A DNA stretch of 64,000 nt from Karstenula rhodostoma CBS 690.94 (lineage: Eukaryota; Ascomycota; Dothideomycetes; Pleosporales; Didymosphaeriaceae). The translations under genes were made by a program, and so were the position numbers. The first letter of the stretch is position 1. Each line of letters begins with the position of its first letter. Positions 13,119-21,617 of this stretch are shown here, in pieces. The notes under the pieces were generated by a model. The model had not been told where the DNA came from. It did no database searches and was given only the letters and a program-made list of their open reading frames with translations. The stretch covers positions 1,333,937-1,397,936 of the forward strand of contig MU001494.1 of NCBI GenBank assembly GCA_010093485.1, given 5' to 3'.

Positions 13119-15942
13119 CTAAGCACCTCCTTCTCCCACCGCCCCCTTAAGCCACGAAACAAACCCGGAAAGCGTCCACTTCTTCTCTTCAGCAGCGGTG
13201 GCGGGGACATCGTAGCTGCTTCCTGCGTTGGGCGCGGCGATTGCGGAGGGGATGGTTGGATGAGGCTCCTCTGTGGTACCAGAACCTTGGTCGTAACCGC
13301 TGCCAGGATTCGCGGGGGCCGCACTGGGTGAGGGAGTTTGAGCGGCAGGCGAGGACAAGGCGTCGGAAACGAGGCTGGGGATCACGGCTGGCGTCGAGAT
13401 GACCACAACAGACGAAGACCCCGTGTCGTAGCCGCCGCCAGCCCCAATCGCCGGCGCCGGCGCAAGAACCGCAGAGCTGCTGGCAATAGGTGCAGAAGGC
13501 GAAGTCCCGTTGGAACCACCGTCAAGCGCAATGATTTTCTTGGCCGCGTGCTCAGCAGCCACCATGACGATGACGTGTGTGTTTCCCGATGGCAGATCTG
13601 CATGCATCCCTGCATCGACGACAAAGAGATTGTCTGTACCGTATACTTTGCAGTTTGTGTCGACGACTGCGGTGCCGTTCTTGGAGCCGTCGTCTGTACC
13701 GATGATGGTGGTGCCTGTCATGTGTGTGCCGGGGGAGGGCGGGGTGCGCGCGACGATTGCGGCGCCGGTGTCATTCAGGAGTCCAGCGTAAGAGAGGGTG
13801 CTGTTGGCGCGGTGGGAGAGGGCGAGCATCTCGTCGATGGCGAGGGCGATTGCTTCTTTGTCCGTGTCCGTTTGGAGATAGGGGCTCTCGCTGAACTCGG
13901 TGTTGCCCTCGGAGGTCATGGTAAGACGGCCAGAAGATGTTGTGCCATGCGTCAAAAGAAACATAATATCAATGGTATTGTTGACCGTGGAGTAGCAGTG
14001 CGTCTGGACGACGAGCTTGCTGCCGTCGCTGGTGGTCACCGTCGTGAACGTGTTGAGGCGCATCTGCGGGTTACCGACGAGGGGGCCAGCCGCCTGGGCG
14101 AAGAGATCGATGTCGGTCTGGCTTGGGTCGCCGAAGGCGGTGGCAGGCAGGATGCTCATGCCAGCAGTGACGTTGAACTTAATGCCGATGATTGCGTGGT
14201 CGCGGACGAAGCCGACGGGGGAGTTTATCCAGGCTGCCTTGGGAGGAAGCGTAATGGACGTGGTCTGCTTGGAGGCAACTTCGATCTGGTCAGCGGGACC
14301 GATACCAGAGTTGAAGAGAATACGTGGCGACGACATTGAACCAGCAGCAAGGATGACCTTGCCATTGGGTTTGACGCTGAAGATGGTCCGATGACTGGTG
14401 TTATCCTCGGTCTCGACACCTGTGATGGTAGAATTTATGCGGATGGCACGGAGAACCTTAGTGTGTAGTTTTAGTGTGAAGTTGGGATCAGATAAGGCGA
14501 GTGGGAGGTATTGGTTAACGGGACCAGAGCGACGGCCATTGGCGATGTTCATTGCTGGGGGAGAGTACGTCTGGAACTTCTCGTCAGGCTCCTCGTTGGT
14601 GGAGACCTCCTTCCAACCAGCCCCAGCAAGGAATTTGGAGAGAACCTCGTAGACGGCGTTGTCGTAGTACTTGCCATCTGAAGAAGGCTGAATCGTACCG
14701 GGATTGCGCTCGTAGAGGCGGTCGGCAGCCTCCGATACACCGTCAGACCACTGCCAGCCTGCCGGCCAGTGCTCGAAGTCGAAGCTTGGGGGCTTAATGA
14801 AGGCCATTCCGTTTACGGTTGTGCCCCCACCCAGGATACACCCTGCCATTCCAGCGGTGTCAGAGCAGTAACCCTTGTTACCAGGGTAAGCAGACAGCTG
14901 CATAAACATTGCTGGAACTTCGTAGATGGTCGTAGTATCGTTCCACGGGGGAGTGAGAGTGCCACCAGTAGAGTAGAAGGACGGGCCACCACGCTCAAGT
15001 AGAAGCACGGACTTGCCGGTCTCGGTGAGACGTTGAGCAGTGACGATACCAGAAGCGCCTGAGATTCGTCAGTGGCTGCAAGTGCTACGATATGGGACTA
15101 GGTCAATCAACGCAAGTCGCCGTCAGAATCGTGTTCACCCGCGATGAGGTGTAAGCACTAGACTTGGCTCGTGTATAACGTCGCGAGTTGACCCAGGATC
15201 CATTGTACTCACCCCCTCCCACGACAATGTAATCGTAGGTTGTGTTGTAGGTTGTCACTGTGCCGTTGTAGGGGATCGTGCCGTTAGTAGGAAGCGTTCC
15301 ATTGCTCGGGTTGGAAGGCGTCGTAGCGTTACTAGCTAGCGCAGCCCACGACGCGAACTCAGCAGACTTCGCGTTGGAAATGTCGACGGCATAGAGGCCA
15401 AAAGTATCGTGTTGCTCAATAGAAGAGCTGGGGCTAGAAGGGGTCGAGGGACCAGAGGTGGTGGCGATAGCCCACCCGAAGACACTAGTCTCAGCTGAGG
15501 CGTTGAGGGACTTCACGGTGGTGTCTACGGACATGCAGTTCTTGCAAAGAAACGTGTAGCTGAAACCGGTTTCGTTGGTGCTGGAGGCGATGGTTTGGAG
15601 AGTCGGGCCATTCACGACGGTGGGAAGCGCATAGTTGGTTGCTGACCGTAGAGATGAGACGATCTCTCCGTTGTTAGGCCACGCTACTAGGAGCATGGAG
15701 TTCAACATGGATCCCGTGAACGAGACACCAGCCCATCCTGTCAAGGTGTTTGCAGAGAGCTGCCCGATGAAGTCTGTGGTTGGATTCTCAGGAAGAGCAA
15801 CTCCGAACGAGTAGTTGGCAACGTTCTTCTGCTGGAAGGTGATGCCTGTAGCCTCGTCCGTGTAGCTAGTAGTGAGCTGAGCCTGTGCGCCAGCAAAGCT
15901 AGCTGCCAGAGCAAGCGACAAGAGTATGTGACGAATTGCCAT
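13119..15942 (-). CDS. Cellobiose dehydrogenase (AA8 cytochrome + AA3_1 GMC flavoprotein), about 889 aa
   Basis: This is a secreted flavocytochrome that oxidises cellobiose and feeds electrons to lytic polysaccharide monooxygenases. Exons are 15942-15213 and 15058-13119; the 154-nt intron (GTGAGT..CACTGAC..CTCAG) closes the frame. A signal peptide (about 1-20, A-Q-A cleavage) leads into the cytochrome domain (about 21-215). Its candidate haem ligands are Met79 (in G-S-M-L-N) and the His in I-E-Q-H-D-T-F-G-L-Y. A Thr/Asn/Pro linker rich in N-x-T sites follows. The FAD site V-V-G-G-G-A-S-G lies at about 239-246. The catalytic pair is His near 688 (G-T-H-M-T-G) and Asn near 737 (P-S-G-N-T-H), close to where the well-studied basidiomycete enzyme has them. 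There is no cellulose-binding module. A 120-residue low-complexity tail has three G/S-YD motifs (GGGYD, GSGYD, GSSYD) and ends in a Trp-containing helix. Confidence 0.93.
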
Positions 15943-16662
15943 CTTGGGCAAAGGTAAAGAACGTATTGGGTGAGAAACGAAGAAAAGAGGGTGTGCACCG
16001 AGGCAATGAACATGTGGGTGAGTTCGACTGCTACCAGACCCGCGATAGCTCCTCCACAAGATGCCCTCCTCCATCCTTATATCAGGCTCTGAGATAGGCC
16101 TTGACGCCTAAGCGTGTTACAGCTTCCGCCAAAAGTCCGTCGTGCAGTTCAGTTTCCCTTAGCCCCAGCCTAGGAAGCATAGGCCTGGCGAAGAGTACAA
16201 ACAATGCGAGCACAAACAAGGCCAATAACGAAGGCCGACCGACCACCTTTCTTGTTCCTCCACAGCCTGTGAAACGAATGTGGTCCGTCCGCCAATAAGA
16301 GCGGGAAGCAGTCAGCCACAACTAGTGATCCCTGCGTGGATCCTCCGCCAATTCATTTCTTTCTTTATCCATGCGCGATTGAACCAAACCCAAACAAATT
16401 CGCCCAGGATTCCAATGACTGGGCTGTGGAGTATGATGCCCGCGCATTGTTGCCAACTGGGTGGATTGGTCTATAGATAACCAATCCCCGGGTTTGGGCG
16501 GGCCAAGCCCCGCAGAATAGATTGCACGGACTCCTGTCACCTCTTACTAACCGAGATTGCCTTGGTTCGCATGGTTCGAAGAACGGAGATGCTAGAGATT
16601 CATGACAAAAGAAGGGTATCTTGACGCTAATTGCAGAGTAATCGAGAGAGGGTTTCCAGGTT
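15943..16662. promoter_or_regulatory. Upstream region of cellobiose dehydrogenase; downstream of GPI8
   Basis: This 720-bp gap contains the promoter of the cellobiose dehydrogenase gene and the 3' end of GPI8 (both minus strand). Apart from the TATA-like motif I can support nothing specific. Confidence 0.5.
16077..16085 (-). promoter_or_regulatory. TATA-like box of the cellobiose dehydrogenase gene
   Basis: On the minus strand the sequence GATATAAGG lies about 135-140 bp upstream of the ATG at 15942. That distance suits a fungal core promoter with a roughly 100-nt leader. This is inference from position and motif only. Confidence 0.4.
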
Positions 16663-17880: not shown

Positions 17881-18179
17881 GGTTGCAAGAGCCCACGCAA
17901 CAATCGCAGTGTCTATGCAAAACCGCGAATATGTCGTGAGCTTAATTACGCAAGGAGATTCCGCGCCTTCTGCAACACACGTTGGAGATGCGATGCAGGG
18001 GTGCGGCTGACTAAATGCCTTCGTCGGCAAAACAATGATGCGCATCGCGTCATTCAGCCACCTCCAGGTGCACCCGCCCGACCTCTTCACTTCTTTGGAA
18101 TAATGTCGTCTTAACGCTTGTTCGGAACCCACTACTTCTACACTGTTTGGTTCTGCAGCGCCCCTTGCCGCTTCACACA
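17881..18179. promoter_or_regulatory. Shared divergent promoter, GPI8 / OPT transporter
   Basis: Only 299 bp separate the two start codons, so the promoters must overlap. I see no unambiguous TATA box. Coordinated expression is possible but not demonstrated. Confidence 0.55.
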
Positions 18180-20453
18180 ATGGCTCCGGACCGGGGCGAA
18201 TCCGTGGACGTGGATGACGACCAGCGAAACCATGCACTCCACGGTGCCAGTAATCCACCGCCGTCTCGGCACAGTTCACGAGCGTCAGGAGAACGCAGGT
18301 TCCTGGCCGAAAGAGCCAACCAACCGCAGAACTTCACCCTCCGAGGCGTCCTTTGTGGCTTGGCTATCGGCGTCGCTATATGCTTCAGTAATATGTACTT
18401 TGGTCTCCAGACAGGATGGGTCACGGGCATGGCCATGCCGTCAGCCCTGATTGGTTTTGCTTACTTCAAGACGGTGTCTCGTATGCTCAAATTTCCCTTT
18501 ACGCCCGTGGAGAATGTACTTGTCCAGTCTGTTGCTGGCGCCGTGGGTACAATGCCGCTTGGATGTGGATTCGTCGGCGTGATTCCAGCTCTCAACTTCT
18601 TGTTGACCAAGGAAGAAAACGGTCCTCTTGACATTAGTCTTTGGAGACTGGTCGTCTGGTCACTGGGAATATGTTTCTTTGGTGTGGTGTTTGCTGTGCC
18701 TTTGCGCAAGGAGGTCATCATTCGCGAGAAGCTAAAGTTCCCGAGTGGCACTGCCACAGCCCTGATGATCCAAGTCCTGCATGGTGACGATAAATCCAAA
18801 GTCACCACGTCCCACCCTAGCGGCGGAGAGGAAGAGAGGGGAGAAGAACAGCACCTCTTGCAGTCTTCCGAGACAGAAGGCGAATACGCGCTTCGACCGT
18901 CCCACGAGCAGCAGATTGAAGGGCAAGGAAGCGATCCTGACGATGACGGCGACTGGAAAGGCAGGATCCGTCTGCTGCTTATATCCTTTGCTGGCTCGGC
19001 TCTTTACACGATAGTGACCTACTTCATCCCGCAGCTGCACGACGTCCCAGTCTTTGGGCTTACGTTGGCAAGCAAATGGCTGTGGACGTTGAATCCTTCT
19101 CCAGCCTACATCGGACAAGGCATTATCATGGGCCCCGCTACAACTCTCCATATGCTCCTGGGCGCTATAGTGGGCTGGGGTATACTGTCGCCACTTGCAA
19201 AACATCGCGGCTGGGCACCAGGACCTGTCTCGGACTGGACTAATGGCTCCAAGGGATGGATTGTATGGATCTCGCTTGCAATCATGTTAGCAGATTCCTT
19301 GGTTAACCTCGGATGGCTCGCTTTTCGACCTTTGCTCGCTATCGGCAGGTTGTACTTTCCTTCGGCCAAAGAAATCTATGATACGCACACTTGGAGACAA
19401 CTTCTCACCCTCAACATTACTCGTCAGCCTGCGTACACTCAGCTCAACGATGGTACTTCCGCAAATCCTATCACTGCTATCAAGCAACACCTTTCTGAGG
19501 ACAACGAGCCGGACGCACCGCCCGAACACCAGATCTCGAATCGCACAATGATCATCGGACTCATCCTCTCGCTCGCCGCATGCATAGCTGGTGTACACAT
19601 TTCTTTCCCCAACCTCATCCCGCTCAGCCTCACATTTCTGGCGCTCGTTTTGGCGCTCTTCCTCTCCATCATGGGCGTTCGCGCGTTAGGCGAGACGGAC
19701 CTCAACCCTGTTTCCGGCATCTCGAAGCTTACACAGCTCATCTTCGCGCTCGTCACACCCACCACCGGACCGAACGCCAAAAACTCGGTCATCATTAACC
19801 TGCTCGCCGGTGCCGTCTCCGAATCGGCAGCTCTCCAAGCAGGTGACCTACTGCAGGATCTTAAATGCGGCCATCTGCTAGGCGCGGCGCCAAACGCACA
19901 GTTCTGGGGCCAGATGATCGGTTCGGGCGTTGGTGCGGTGATTTCTGCGCTAGTGTACAAGCTTTACACGCATGTGTACGCTGGTCAGATCCCCGGTGGT
20001 TTGTTTGAAGTTCCAACAGCGTACGTATGGGTCTTCACTGCAAGATTGGTCACAGGCAAAGGCCTGCCACCTATGGTCCGCGAATGGGCGGCGGGTGCTG
20101 GAGCAATTTTTGCCGTAGGGACGATGTTGAGAGTCTACGGGCAGTTTAGGAAGAGGCAAGGCTTGAGCGCAAGATGGCTTGACTTCGTGCCGGGTGGTAT
20201 TGCCTTTGCCATTGGTGAGTATTCTGGCAGGTTATCTTGTGGTGTTCAATACTAACAGCGTACAGGGATGTACAACACACCCTCATTTACGCTTGCACGT
20301 ACTATTGGTGGTCTGATCAGCTTGTGGTGGAAGCGTTGGAAGGGCCGAAGCGAGACGCAGATTGTTGTGCTTGCTAGCGGTTTGATACTGGGCGAGGGGC
20401 TGTTCAGTATCGTGAATCTGGCTTTGGCTAGCTTGAAGGTGCCGCATTTGTAG
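18180..20453 (+). CDS. OPT-family oligopeptide transporter, 740 aa
   Basis: This is a multi-pass membrane transporter of the OPT superfamily, which moves small peptides or metal chelates with protons. Exons are 18180-20214 and 20266-20453; the 51-nt intron (GTGAGT..ACTAAC..ACAG) closes the frame. The N-terminal 60 residues are hydrophilic. The first membrane region carries the family signature [11 protein letters not shown], followed by P-F-T-P-V-E-N and F-P-S-G-T-A-T-A. About a dozen hydrophobic helices follow, broken by an acidic loop at about 205-265. The sequence resembles the branch that includes yeast YGL114W and plant YSL proteins more than classical Opt1, but the substrate cannot be fixed from sequence. 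Confidence 0.9.
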
Positions 20454-20723
20454 ATGACGTGCTCGATCAAAAGTAGCTTTACGACAATATATCTCACAAT
20501 CTTTGTTCAAGTAACTTTTGGAGCATATAGACAAGTTAGGAGTCATCTCGTATCCTATACAACCTACAACGAAACCACTTGAACTACGTAGTCTCTTCGA
20601 GAATTCCCAGGTGTATTGAGCTTGAGGGCAAACGATACACATACTACGAGTGCTACATATCCCCACAAAGACAAAAAGAAAAGGCCGAAGCTAACCTCGA
20701 GTATTGACGGCGGACCTTAGGGC
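20454..20723. other. Spacer between OPT transporter and tRNA-Pro; Pol III terminator
   Basis: The transporter 3' end is followed by the 3' flank of the minus-strand tRNA-Pro. On the minus strand a T5 run (complement of A5 at 20673-20677), followed closely by a T4, lies about 46 nt beyond the tRNA 3' end. It could terminate polymerase III. Confidence 0.5.
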
Positions 20724-20859
20724 GGGCTGCACTGGGATTCGAACTGAGTACACCAGTTAGCCTTCTCCTCAGTTTAGACAATGGATTCGCGTACCCCAGG
20801 ATCTCCTGCATTCATGCTTTGACCCAAAGCAGGAATCTTCACCACTTGACCATACAGCC
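20724..20859 (-). tRNA. tRNA-Pro(UGG) with a 12-nt anticodon intron and a 51-nt T-arm insert
   Basis: The acceptor stem GGCTGTA/TGCAGCC, D-stem GTC/GAT, anticodon stem CCTGC/GCAGG and T-stem CTGGG/CCCAG all pair fully, counting G-U. The anticodon loop TTTGGGT gives UGG. A normal nuclear tRNA intron of 12 nt (20822-20811) follows position 37. In addition, 51 nt (20794-20744) separate T-stem residue 53 from the T-loop TTCGAAT. Removing both leaves a standard 73-nt tRNA. The A box TGGTCAAGTGG is perfect, and because the insert ends in AG the B box is rebuilt as AGTTCGAATCC, one mismatch from consensus. It is either a functional tRNA with a novel second intron or a recently interrupted pseudogene. 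A normal tRNA-Pro(UGG) with a different T-stem lies 0.7 kb away. Confidence 0.85.
20744..20794 (-). other. 51-nt GT-AG insert inside tRNA-Pro, spliceosomal-intron-like
   Basis: On the tRNA strand it begins GTACGC, carries GGCTAAC, and ends ACTCAG 14 nt after the presumed branch A. These are the donor, branch and acceptor of introns in neighbouring protein genes (for example the 51-nt intron at 20215-20265). It also forms a possible 7-bp stem, AACTGAG pairing with CTCAGTT, where the last two bases belong to the T-loop, so a structural role or a different processing route is possible. No target-site duplication longer than one G is visible. Confidence 0.7.
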
Positions 20860-21531
20860 GGCGGATTGCTTGATGAGTAGTCTTCTGCTCGAGAGATATA
20901 TGCACATGTCGTTTAATTGAACGCAAACGCAAAACGCGAAGAAATTGACAGTAATCAGATCATTGGCAGCGAGCGTGTATGCAGCGGAACGGACAGCAAA
21001 TGCGTAGAAAGCAAGAAAATGAGATTGACAGGGGCGATGCTGGGCGTGAGATACAGCGGCGTGCTTCGTTGCGGCGAGCTGCGTGGAAAAGATGACAGCT
21101 CTACGGGAGCGCAGCGTGTGTAACGTAGATATATGTAGTCTGCATGGGTTGGACGCAGAAAGCCGAGAGTCCGGGCAGGAGGCGGGCCAGGATTGCTTCC
21201 GACTTGGACGTACAAAGAATACTGATGAAGAAGGACGGCACAGCGCAGGCCCTAGTCGTTCTTCAGCATGCTGGAGTGCAAAGTATCGCGTTCCCAAGTG
21301 TAGAAACGAGCACAAACCTAGCTACTTTAGCAGTAACAAATATCCTACGCACCCTGGCACAATCACTCCTCCGACCTACAATATGTACGTACCAAAGAAA
21401 AAACACCCCCCTACTTCACGTCAAGGGTGGAAGAATGAGCAAAAAGAACCGCATTGTCGCCTTGCGGGACGGTAGGAAACATCCGGACGTCGTACAACGC
21501 TGTAGACACCCGTCCGACGGCGAAAAAGGAT
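20860..21531. other. Gap between two tRNA-Pro genes
   Basis: No protein gene is supported; frames up to 158 codons overlap each other on both strands without recognisable features. A T5 run on the minus strand (A5 at 21523-21527) lies about 5 nt beyond the 3' end of the second tRNA and is a good Pol III terminator. Confidence 0.55.
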
Positions 21532-21617
21532 GGGCTCCACCGCGATTCGAACGCGGGGCCTCCTGCAGCTTAGGATGCTAACCCAAAGCAGGAATCATAC
21601 CACTAGACCATGAAGCC
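21532..21617 (-). tRNA. tRNA-Pro(UGG) with 14-nt intron
   Basis: The acceptor stem GGCTTCA/TGGAGCC, anticodon stem CCTGC/GCAGG and T-stem CCGCG/CGCGG pair well; the anticodon loop TTTGGGT reads UGG. A 14-nt intron (21581-21568) follows position 37, the standard eukaryotic site. The A box TGGTCTAGTGG is perfect; the B box region reads GCGTTCGAATC, GTTCGAATC with a C in place of the leading G. The discriminator base is C. Its T-arm is uninterrupted, unlike its neighbour at 20724-20859. Confidence 0.95.

Follow-up and report, generated by a model that had tools for sequence, protein, structure and literature searches.

Inserts with the anatomy of spliceosomal introns in nuclear tRNA genes of the fungus Karstenula rhodostoma

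The splicing of pre-tRNAs is regarded as a system apart from spliceosomal splicing. The tRNA-Pro(UGG) gene at positions 20724-20859 of the window, the 64,000-nucleotide stretch of DNA analyzed here, raises the question whether both can act on one and the same transcript. Besides its canonical tRNA intron, this gene (hereafter the starting gene) contains a 51-nt insert that begins with GTACGC, holds GGCTAAC inside and ends with CTCAG. The original prediction took this insert for a spliceosomal-type intron within a tRNA gene transcribed by Pol III, a view that gained support from 12 more genes of the same genome. We assign a probability of about 0.87 to the reading that the inserts are U2-type spliceosomal introns in nuclear Pol III-type tRNA genes, forming a set of at least 13. 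The intron anatomy, the splice signals, the clean tRNA left upon removal, the constraint on the exons and the recurrence of the inserts are all directly seen.

Coordinates of the starting gene, its parts and the neighbouring tRNA gene in the window
Feature	Position	Strand	Remarks
tRNA-Pro(UGG) gene	20859..20724, 136 nt	-	three exons, two inserts
Exon 1, nt 1-37	20823..20859	-	A box TGGTCAAGTGG from nt 8
Canonical tRNA intron, 12 nt, at 37/38	20811..20822	-	position and anticodon-loop/intron pair present
Exon 2, nt 38-53	20795..20810	-	T-stem 5' side CTGGG at its end
GT-AG insert, 51 nt, at 53/54	20744..20794	-	donor GTACGC, branch site GCTAAC, end CAG
Exon 3, T-loop to discriminator base	20724..20743	-	most of the B box
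TATA-like element TATATC	20895..20900, 41 nt upstream of the gene	-	motif match only
First T run 3' of the gene, TTTTCTTTTT	20673..20682, 41 nt downstream	-	possible, distant Pol III terminator
Neighbouring tRNA-Pro(UGG)	21532..21617	-	14-nt canonical intron, without GT-AG insert

Excision of both the 12-nt intron and the 51-nt insert yields a clean 73-nt tRNA-Pro(UGG), and the predicted position and motifs of the insert were recovered at 20794-20744. Pairing is complete in the acceptor, anticodon and T stems, as had been claimed. ARAGORN names the exon-only sequence tRNA-Pro(tgg), and miscalls the gene as Leu when both inserts are present and as Ser when just the 12-nt intron is left in. Scored unspliced against RF00005, the gene reaches 30.0 bits, just over the gathering score of 29, and the model pairs its T-stem across the insert; at gathering, a scan of the whole 64-kb window listed nothing, and the gene is absent from the matches of the whole-genome RF00005 search. 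Relative to the neighbouring tRNA-Pro(UGG), two acceptor pairs and two T-stem pairs differ with pairing kept. In three of these four, including both T-stem pairs, the two sides have changed together, which bears out the earlier remark that the T-stem is unlike that of the neighbour. The neighbour itself is missing from the Rfam scans, while ARAGORN and its sequence show a complete tRNA; without the intron option, ARAGORN names its anticodon ggg.

The starting gene has an intact A box, a TATA-like element at -41 and a first T run at +41. Its B box, AGTTCGAATCC, agrees with the consensus at 10 of 11 letters once the last two insert bases are included, in line with the suggestion that the terminal AG of the insert largely rebuilds this element. 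The heptamer CGAATCC within the insert (20783-20789) repeats T-loop/T-stem letters located 48 nt downstream (20735-20741), and possibly reflects microhomology at insertion or a weak second B box. Tandem duplication was rejected as the source of the insert, as the likeness ends with CGAATCC and amounts at most to microhomology.

Searches of the genome (44.3 Mb, 29 contigs) for further tRNA genes with GT-AG inserts went beyond the T-arm inserts that had been proposed as a target, and returned 12 more genes in which 49-61 nt are inserted at one of five other sites: Pro(UGG), two Pro(AGG), two initiator Met, two Ala(CGC) and five Gly(GCC). Together, the 13 genes use the sites 20/21, 25/26, 38/39, 46/47, 53/54 and 60/61. 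Inserts occur in 4 of 8 Pro, 2 of 3 initiator Met, 5 of 6 Gly(GCC) and 2 of 2 Ala(CGC) genes found. A pattern around the Pro(UGG) anticodon matched 11 places, three of them tRNA-Pro(UGG), and revealed a third Pro(UGG) gene (L059) with a GT-AG insert of 61 nt in the D-loop. A pattern with a donor after the A box matched five places, including three tRNA genes, namely L059 again (as L068) and the new Pro(AGG) genes L065 and L067. Among 20 long RF00005 matches, we found a tRNA-Ala(CGC) with an insert at 25/26 (L088) and an initiator-type tRNA-Met with an insert at 38/39 (L089). The three initiator-type Met genes comprise one without insert (L108), the same gene with the 38/39 insert (L109, identical to L089) and one with an insert at 46/47 by hand count (L110). 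All 32 places matched by an Ala/Gly A-box pattern were inspected and yielded another Ala(CGC) gene interrupted at 25/26 (L114), together with six non-decayed Gly(GCC) genes, of which five (L111, L112, L113, L115, L116) carry an insert at 60/61 and one (L092) does not. Ten of the 13 genes (L059, L088, L109, L110 and L111-L116) come from searches without a GT or AG requirement; L065 and L067 come from the donor-requiring search, and the starting gene was the initial observation.

Of 1177 first-look candidates, the genome-wide RF00005 search scored 62, which leaves the tRNA set incomplete and makes 13 a lower bound. The search gave 54 matches, 52 of which were inspected (all except C23:498427 and C3:106001), with GT-AG inserts in two of them, L088 and L089. 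No GT-AG insert was seen in Ala(AGC) (n=4), Ala(UGC) (n=2), Asn (n=3), Ile (n=4, two otherwise named by ARAGORN), Lys(CUU) (n=6), Lys(UUU) (n=1) or 20 further RF00005 matches that include Ser, Thr, Arg, Gln and Trp. Pro(UGG), Pro(AGG), initiator Met and Gly(GCC) also have copies without the insert, and Ala(UGC) is present beside Ala(CGC), so that splicing of the inserts need not be essential.

Several other patterns were less productive. One combining branch site, AG and T-loop matched 23 places compared to 47 in the control, and a long-intron ARAGORN run on these 23 loci named a single tRNA, the starting gene (L031); ARAGORN can miss insert-bearing genes, as it named none in L111-L113, L115 and L116. 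The pattern TGGTNTAGYGGTTANYA had zero matches. The pattern TRGTRTAGTGGT matched 29 places, with no tRNA named by ARAGORN in the 26 inspected; the remaining three are the known genes L152 and L130 and one place overlapping L192. Outside the genome, TGGTCTAGTGGTGTRNGT matched three viral-contig and 15 genome-contig places, none of the 18 a tRNA by eye, and three more viral-contig patterns matched 0, 0 and 7 places, again with no tRNA by eye.

The Gly(GCC) genes vary in their canonical 37/38 intron, which spans about 6-7 nt (TCCAGT or TCCAGTT) in L111 and L113 and 25-38 nt in the others. Downstream of the insert gene, L113 (G000:C7:935602-935832) also contains the 3' end of a second, insert-free Gly(GCC) tRNA, GTTCGATTCCCGGCCGATGCA. 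Decayed copies of Gly(GCC) and Ala(AGC)-like tRNA are present at L123 and L125 (C6, C7) and L137 (C16:1133068-1133298), with no insert seen at the described sites.

To compare the inserts with introns of protein genes, 28 coding introns were inferred from 277 kb via open flanking frames, without homology, and matrices for donor, branch site and acceptor were fitted on them, starting from fungal consensus signals and excluding eight loci because of overlap with the window or with each other or further loci. The resulting matrices approximate GTRHGY, GCTRAC and CAG. In all 13 inserts, a GT donor and an AG acceptor lie at the exact exon boundaries, donor position +5 is G and a YTAAY branch site is present, with its A 9-13 nt from the 3' end (GCTAAC in the starting gene, 13 nt after the branch A). 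Their lengths of 49-61 nt compare with 45-64 nt for 20 of the 28 inferred coding introns. Scores of 10.9 to 15.0 place the 13 inserts between the 18th and 75th percentile of the inferred coding introns and that of the starting gene at the 39th, which agrees with the fungal spliceosomal anatomy and size ascribed to it. Decoys equal the scores of the 13 inserts in 0.02-1.2% of 40,000 GT..AG segments; for the insert of the starting gene, these are 0.33% of the 40,000 and 0.36% of 60,000 GT..AG genome segments. By arithmetic, a uniquely placed insert with random ends would show GT and AG once in 256 cases. The boundary is unique in nine of 13 inserts, and a one-base slide is possible in four; these include the starting gene, where a slide to the left gives the same product and the chance doubles.

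Genome-wide, the exact trio GTACGC..GGCTAAC..CAG shows no enrichment over its reversed control (13 matches, of which the starting gene accounts for two, versus 17), and GTACGC serves as donor in two of the 28 inferred coding introns. A genome-wide search with a 156-nt query of the starting gene returned the self-match only. When inserts at different sites were compared against shuffles, that of the starting gene was no more alike to the others, and those of L059 and L065 were weakly alike. With six sites, many contigs and different-site inserts that are mostly unlike each other, neither one recent duplication nor an assembly error accounts for the set; both had been named beforehand as possible refutations.

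The position of the inserts is the main reason to keep a rival explanation in which the inserts are removed by the tRNA endonuclease (TSEN) at noncanonical sites, as in archaea and Cyanidioschyzon merolae. Archaeal introns are described at 20/21, 25/26 and 53/54 among other sites (PMC4090602), which are three of the six sites found here, and the tRNA-Ile(UAU) of C. merolae has an intron at 53/54 (PMC9602550). However, the pair between an anticodon-loop-like base and the intron is found in none of the 13 inserts, whereas 12 of 14 canonical introns tested in this genome show it, under one fixed geometry and with the Gly canonical boundaries set by hand, and of four central pairs the 13 inserts form 0-2. 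The endonuclease also has no use for GT, YTAAY and AG, all of which are present in 13 of 13 inserts. Hence, we consider removal of the inserts by the endonuclease very unlikely.

Constraint on the exons argues against an equally improbable alternative, in which the genes with inserts are no longer functional, their inserts stay in place for good and the likeness to an intron is incidental. Insert-free siblings for most isotypes found, the decayed tRNA pieces described above (L123, L125 and L137) and the distant T run of the starting gene would fit this explanation. Against it, exons stay (nearly) identical while insert interiors diverge. Mature exons are identical at 72 of 72 positions between L059 and the insert-free neighbour in the window, whose mature sequences are the same, and between the Pro(AGG) genes L065 and L067 and the insert-free L011; where insert-free siblings allow the comparison, the exons are thus not drifting, an outcome that had been listed as a possible refutation. 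Between the members of 12 same-site gene pairs, 5-23 of 39-43 positions differ inside the inserts, as against 0-1 of 72 in the mature exons (Fisher p 0.03 to 1e-13), the single exon difference lying at the uncertain Gly 37/38 boundary. Within the five Gly inserts, 12 of 14 splice-signal columns are invariant, compared to 11 of 38 other columns (p 0.0004). Gene conversion with insert-free copies could in part cause the exon identity, but it would not preserve the splice signals of inserts that otherwise diverge. An insert is present in both Ala(CGC) genes found, and the starting gene keeps all stem pairs despite two two-sided changes of T-stem pairs.

In the set as a whole, the promoter and terminator elements point at transcription by Pol III. 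The A box is intact in all 13, and the best B-box match covers 9-11 of 11 letters in 11 of them and 7 of 11 in the two initiator Met genes, whose T-loop letters are shared by the insert-free L108. A T run begins within 15 nt past the gene end in 12 of 13, with the starting gene as the exception at 41 nt, and of the seven insert genes with at least 60 nt of upstream sequence, five have a TATA-like element in that stretch. Least probable of the alternatives is an origin of the tRNAs in longer non-coding RNAs that Pol II transcribes and that are spliced in the ordinary way, in which case tRNA release alone would be unusual: spliceosomes do act mostly on Pol II transcripts and the starting gene has no near T run, but the Pol III signals just listed speak against it, and the U6 RNA of Schizosaccharomyces pombe is described as a Pol III transcript that can be spliced (PMC10484740).

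The starting gene is the weakest of the 13 in two respects, namely its remote T run and its diverged exons, which have no same-insert sibling for comparison and differ from those of the neighbour with stems kept. We still regard it as likely that this gene is itself spliced and used, and set this lower than for the whole set, given that no other member has diverged as far and that the T run after this gene is so remote.

From the combined features we infer removal by the spliceosome, an order of steps and an origin of the inserts. Pol III would transcribe the entire insert-bearing gene from its intact or near-intact A and B boxes. In the nucleus, base pairing would bring U1 to the GTRNGN donor and U2 to the YTAAY branch site, after which the spliceosome would excise the insert of 49-61 nt. 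The tRNA endonuclease would take out the canonical 37/38 intron where present. Reverse splicing probably brought the inserts into tRNA precursors, and from there reverse transcription and recombination would have carried them into the genes; gene duplication would then have spread them, as the common site of the five Gly genes suggests.

We hypothesize further, with somewhat more confidence than doubt, that spliceosomal introns have invaded tRNA genes repeatedly and at positions spread over the whole tRNA, perhaps in relatives too. The maturation of tRNAs would then routinely involve the spliceosome, which may even be required for isotypes such as Ala(CGC), and the scattered sites would directly record where introns were reverse-spliced into Pol III transcripts.

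Tani and Ohshima reportedly described, in 1989 and 1991, the mRNA-type intron of the U6 snRNA gene of S. pombe. This RNA is made by Pol III, and its intron is thought to stem from reverse splicing (PMC10484740). As proposed here, a spliceosomal intron resides in a short non-coding Pol III gene, and the case provides a precedent for the Pol III and spliceosome steps. It concerns a single snRNA gene whose product is part of the spliceosome, whereas the present set consists of many folded tRNAs, with endonuclease introns besides. Among the structural RNA genes of Ascomycota, rRNA genes are likewise known to carry GT-AG spliceosomal introns (Cubero 2000; Bhattacharya 2000, cited in PMC11889510); unlike tRNA genes, they are transcribed by Pol I. 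Noncanonical tRNA introns, described for archaea, C. merolae and the nucleomorph of Guillardia theta (PMC4090602; PMC9602550), resemble the inserts in their D- and T-arm sites, in the occurrence of several per gene and in some identical positions. According to these descriptions, they are linked to bulge-helix-bulge motifs or to an unknown route and span 3-24 nt in G. theta, in contrast to the 49-61 nt found here with GT, branch site and AG and without the tested endonuclease pair.

Introner-like elements multiply as near-identical copies in protein genes. Those of Dothideomycetes were reportedly described by van der Burgt in 2012. They represent spliceosomal intron gain in this very class of fungi (PMC4457414), as the inserts would, and differ from them in that inserts at different sites are mostly unlike each other. 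Searches of open-licence papers brought up no title or opening of an abstract that reports spliceosomal introns in tRNA, and such a report may exist elsewhere.

Genes of this kind would join pre-tRNA and spliceosomal splicing, and the 13 found suggest that the mRNA splicing machine also helps make tRNAs. As short, strongly constrained RNAs, they would lend themselves to mapping and dating intron gain, and thereby to the question how new introns originate. Of the whole Pro genes given to ARAGORN, all four insert-bearing ones were misnamed and both insert-free ones named rightly. tRNAscan-SE 2.0 is described as handling noncanonical introns with its archaeal model, and 'spliceosom-' is absent from the main text of its description (PMC8450103). 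In view of this misnaming and this scope, similar genes may be missed or misnamed in other fungal genomes.

A long tRNA intron at the canonical site is present in L130 (G000:C15:395914-396144), a tRNA-Glu(CTC) with a 58-nt intron at 37/38 according to ARAGORN and without a GT-AG insert. The ends of this intron, GGTCTACATTC and GAATGTAGGCC, would allow long hairpin pairing. In the window, the open frame at 18147-20255 beside the starting gene encodes an OPT transporter that matches a protein of Karstenula rhodostoma CBS 690.94 (Pleosporales, Didymosphaeriaceae) with 100% identity across 97% of the query, with the next match in Paraphaeosphaeria minitans at 92%. On the minus strand at 13119-16074, a GMC oxidoreductase frame adjoins a frame for a cellobiose dehydrogenase cytochrome domain, arranged as in one intron-split cellobiose dehydrogenase gene.
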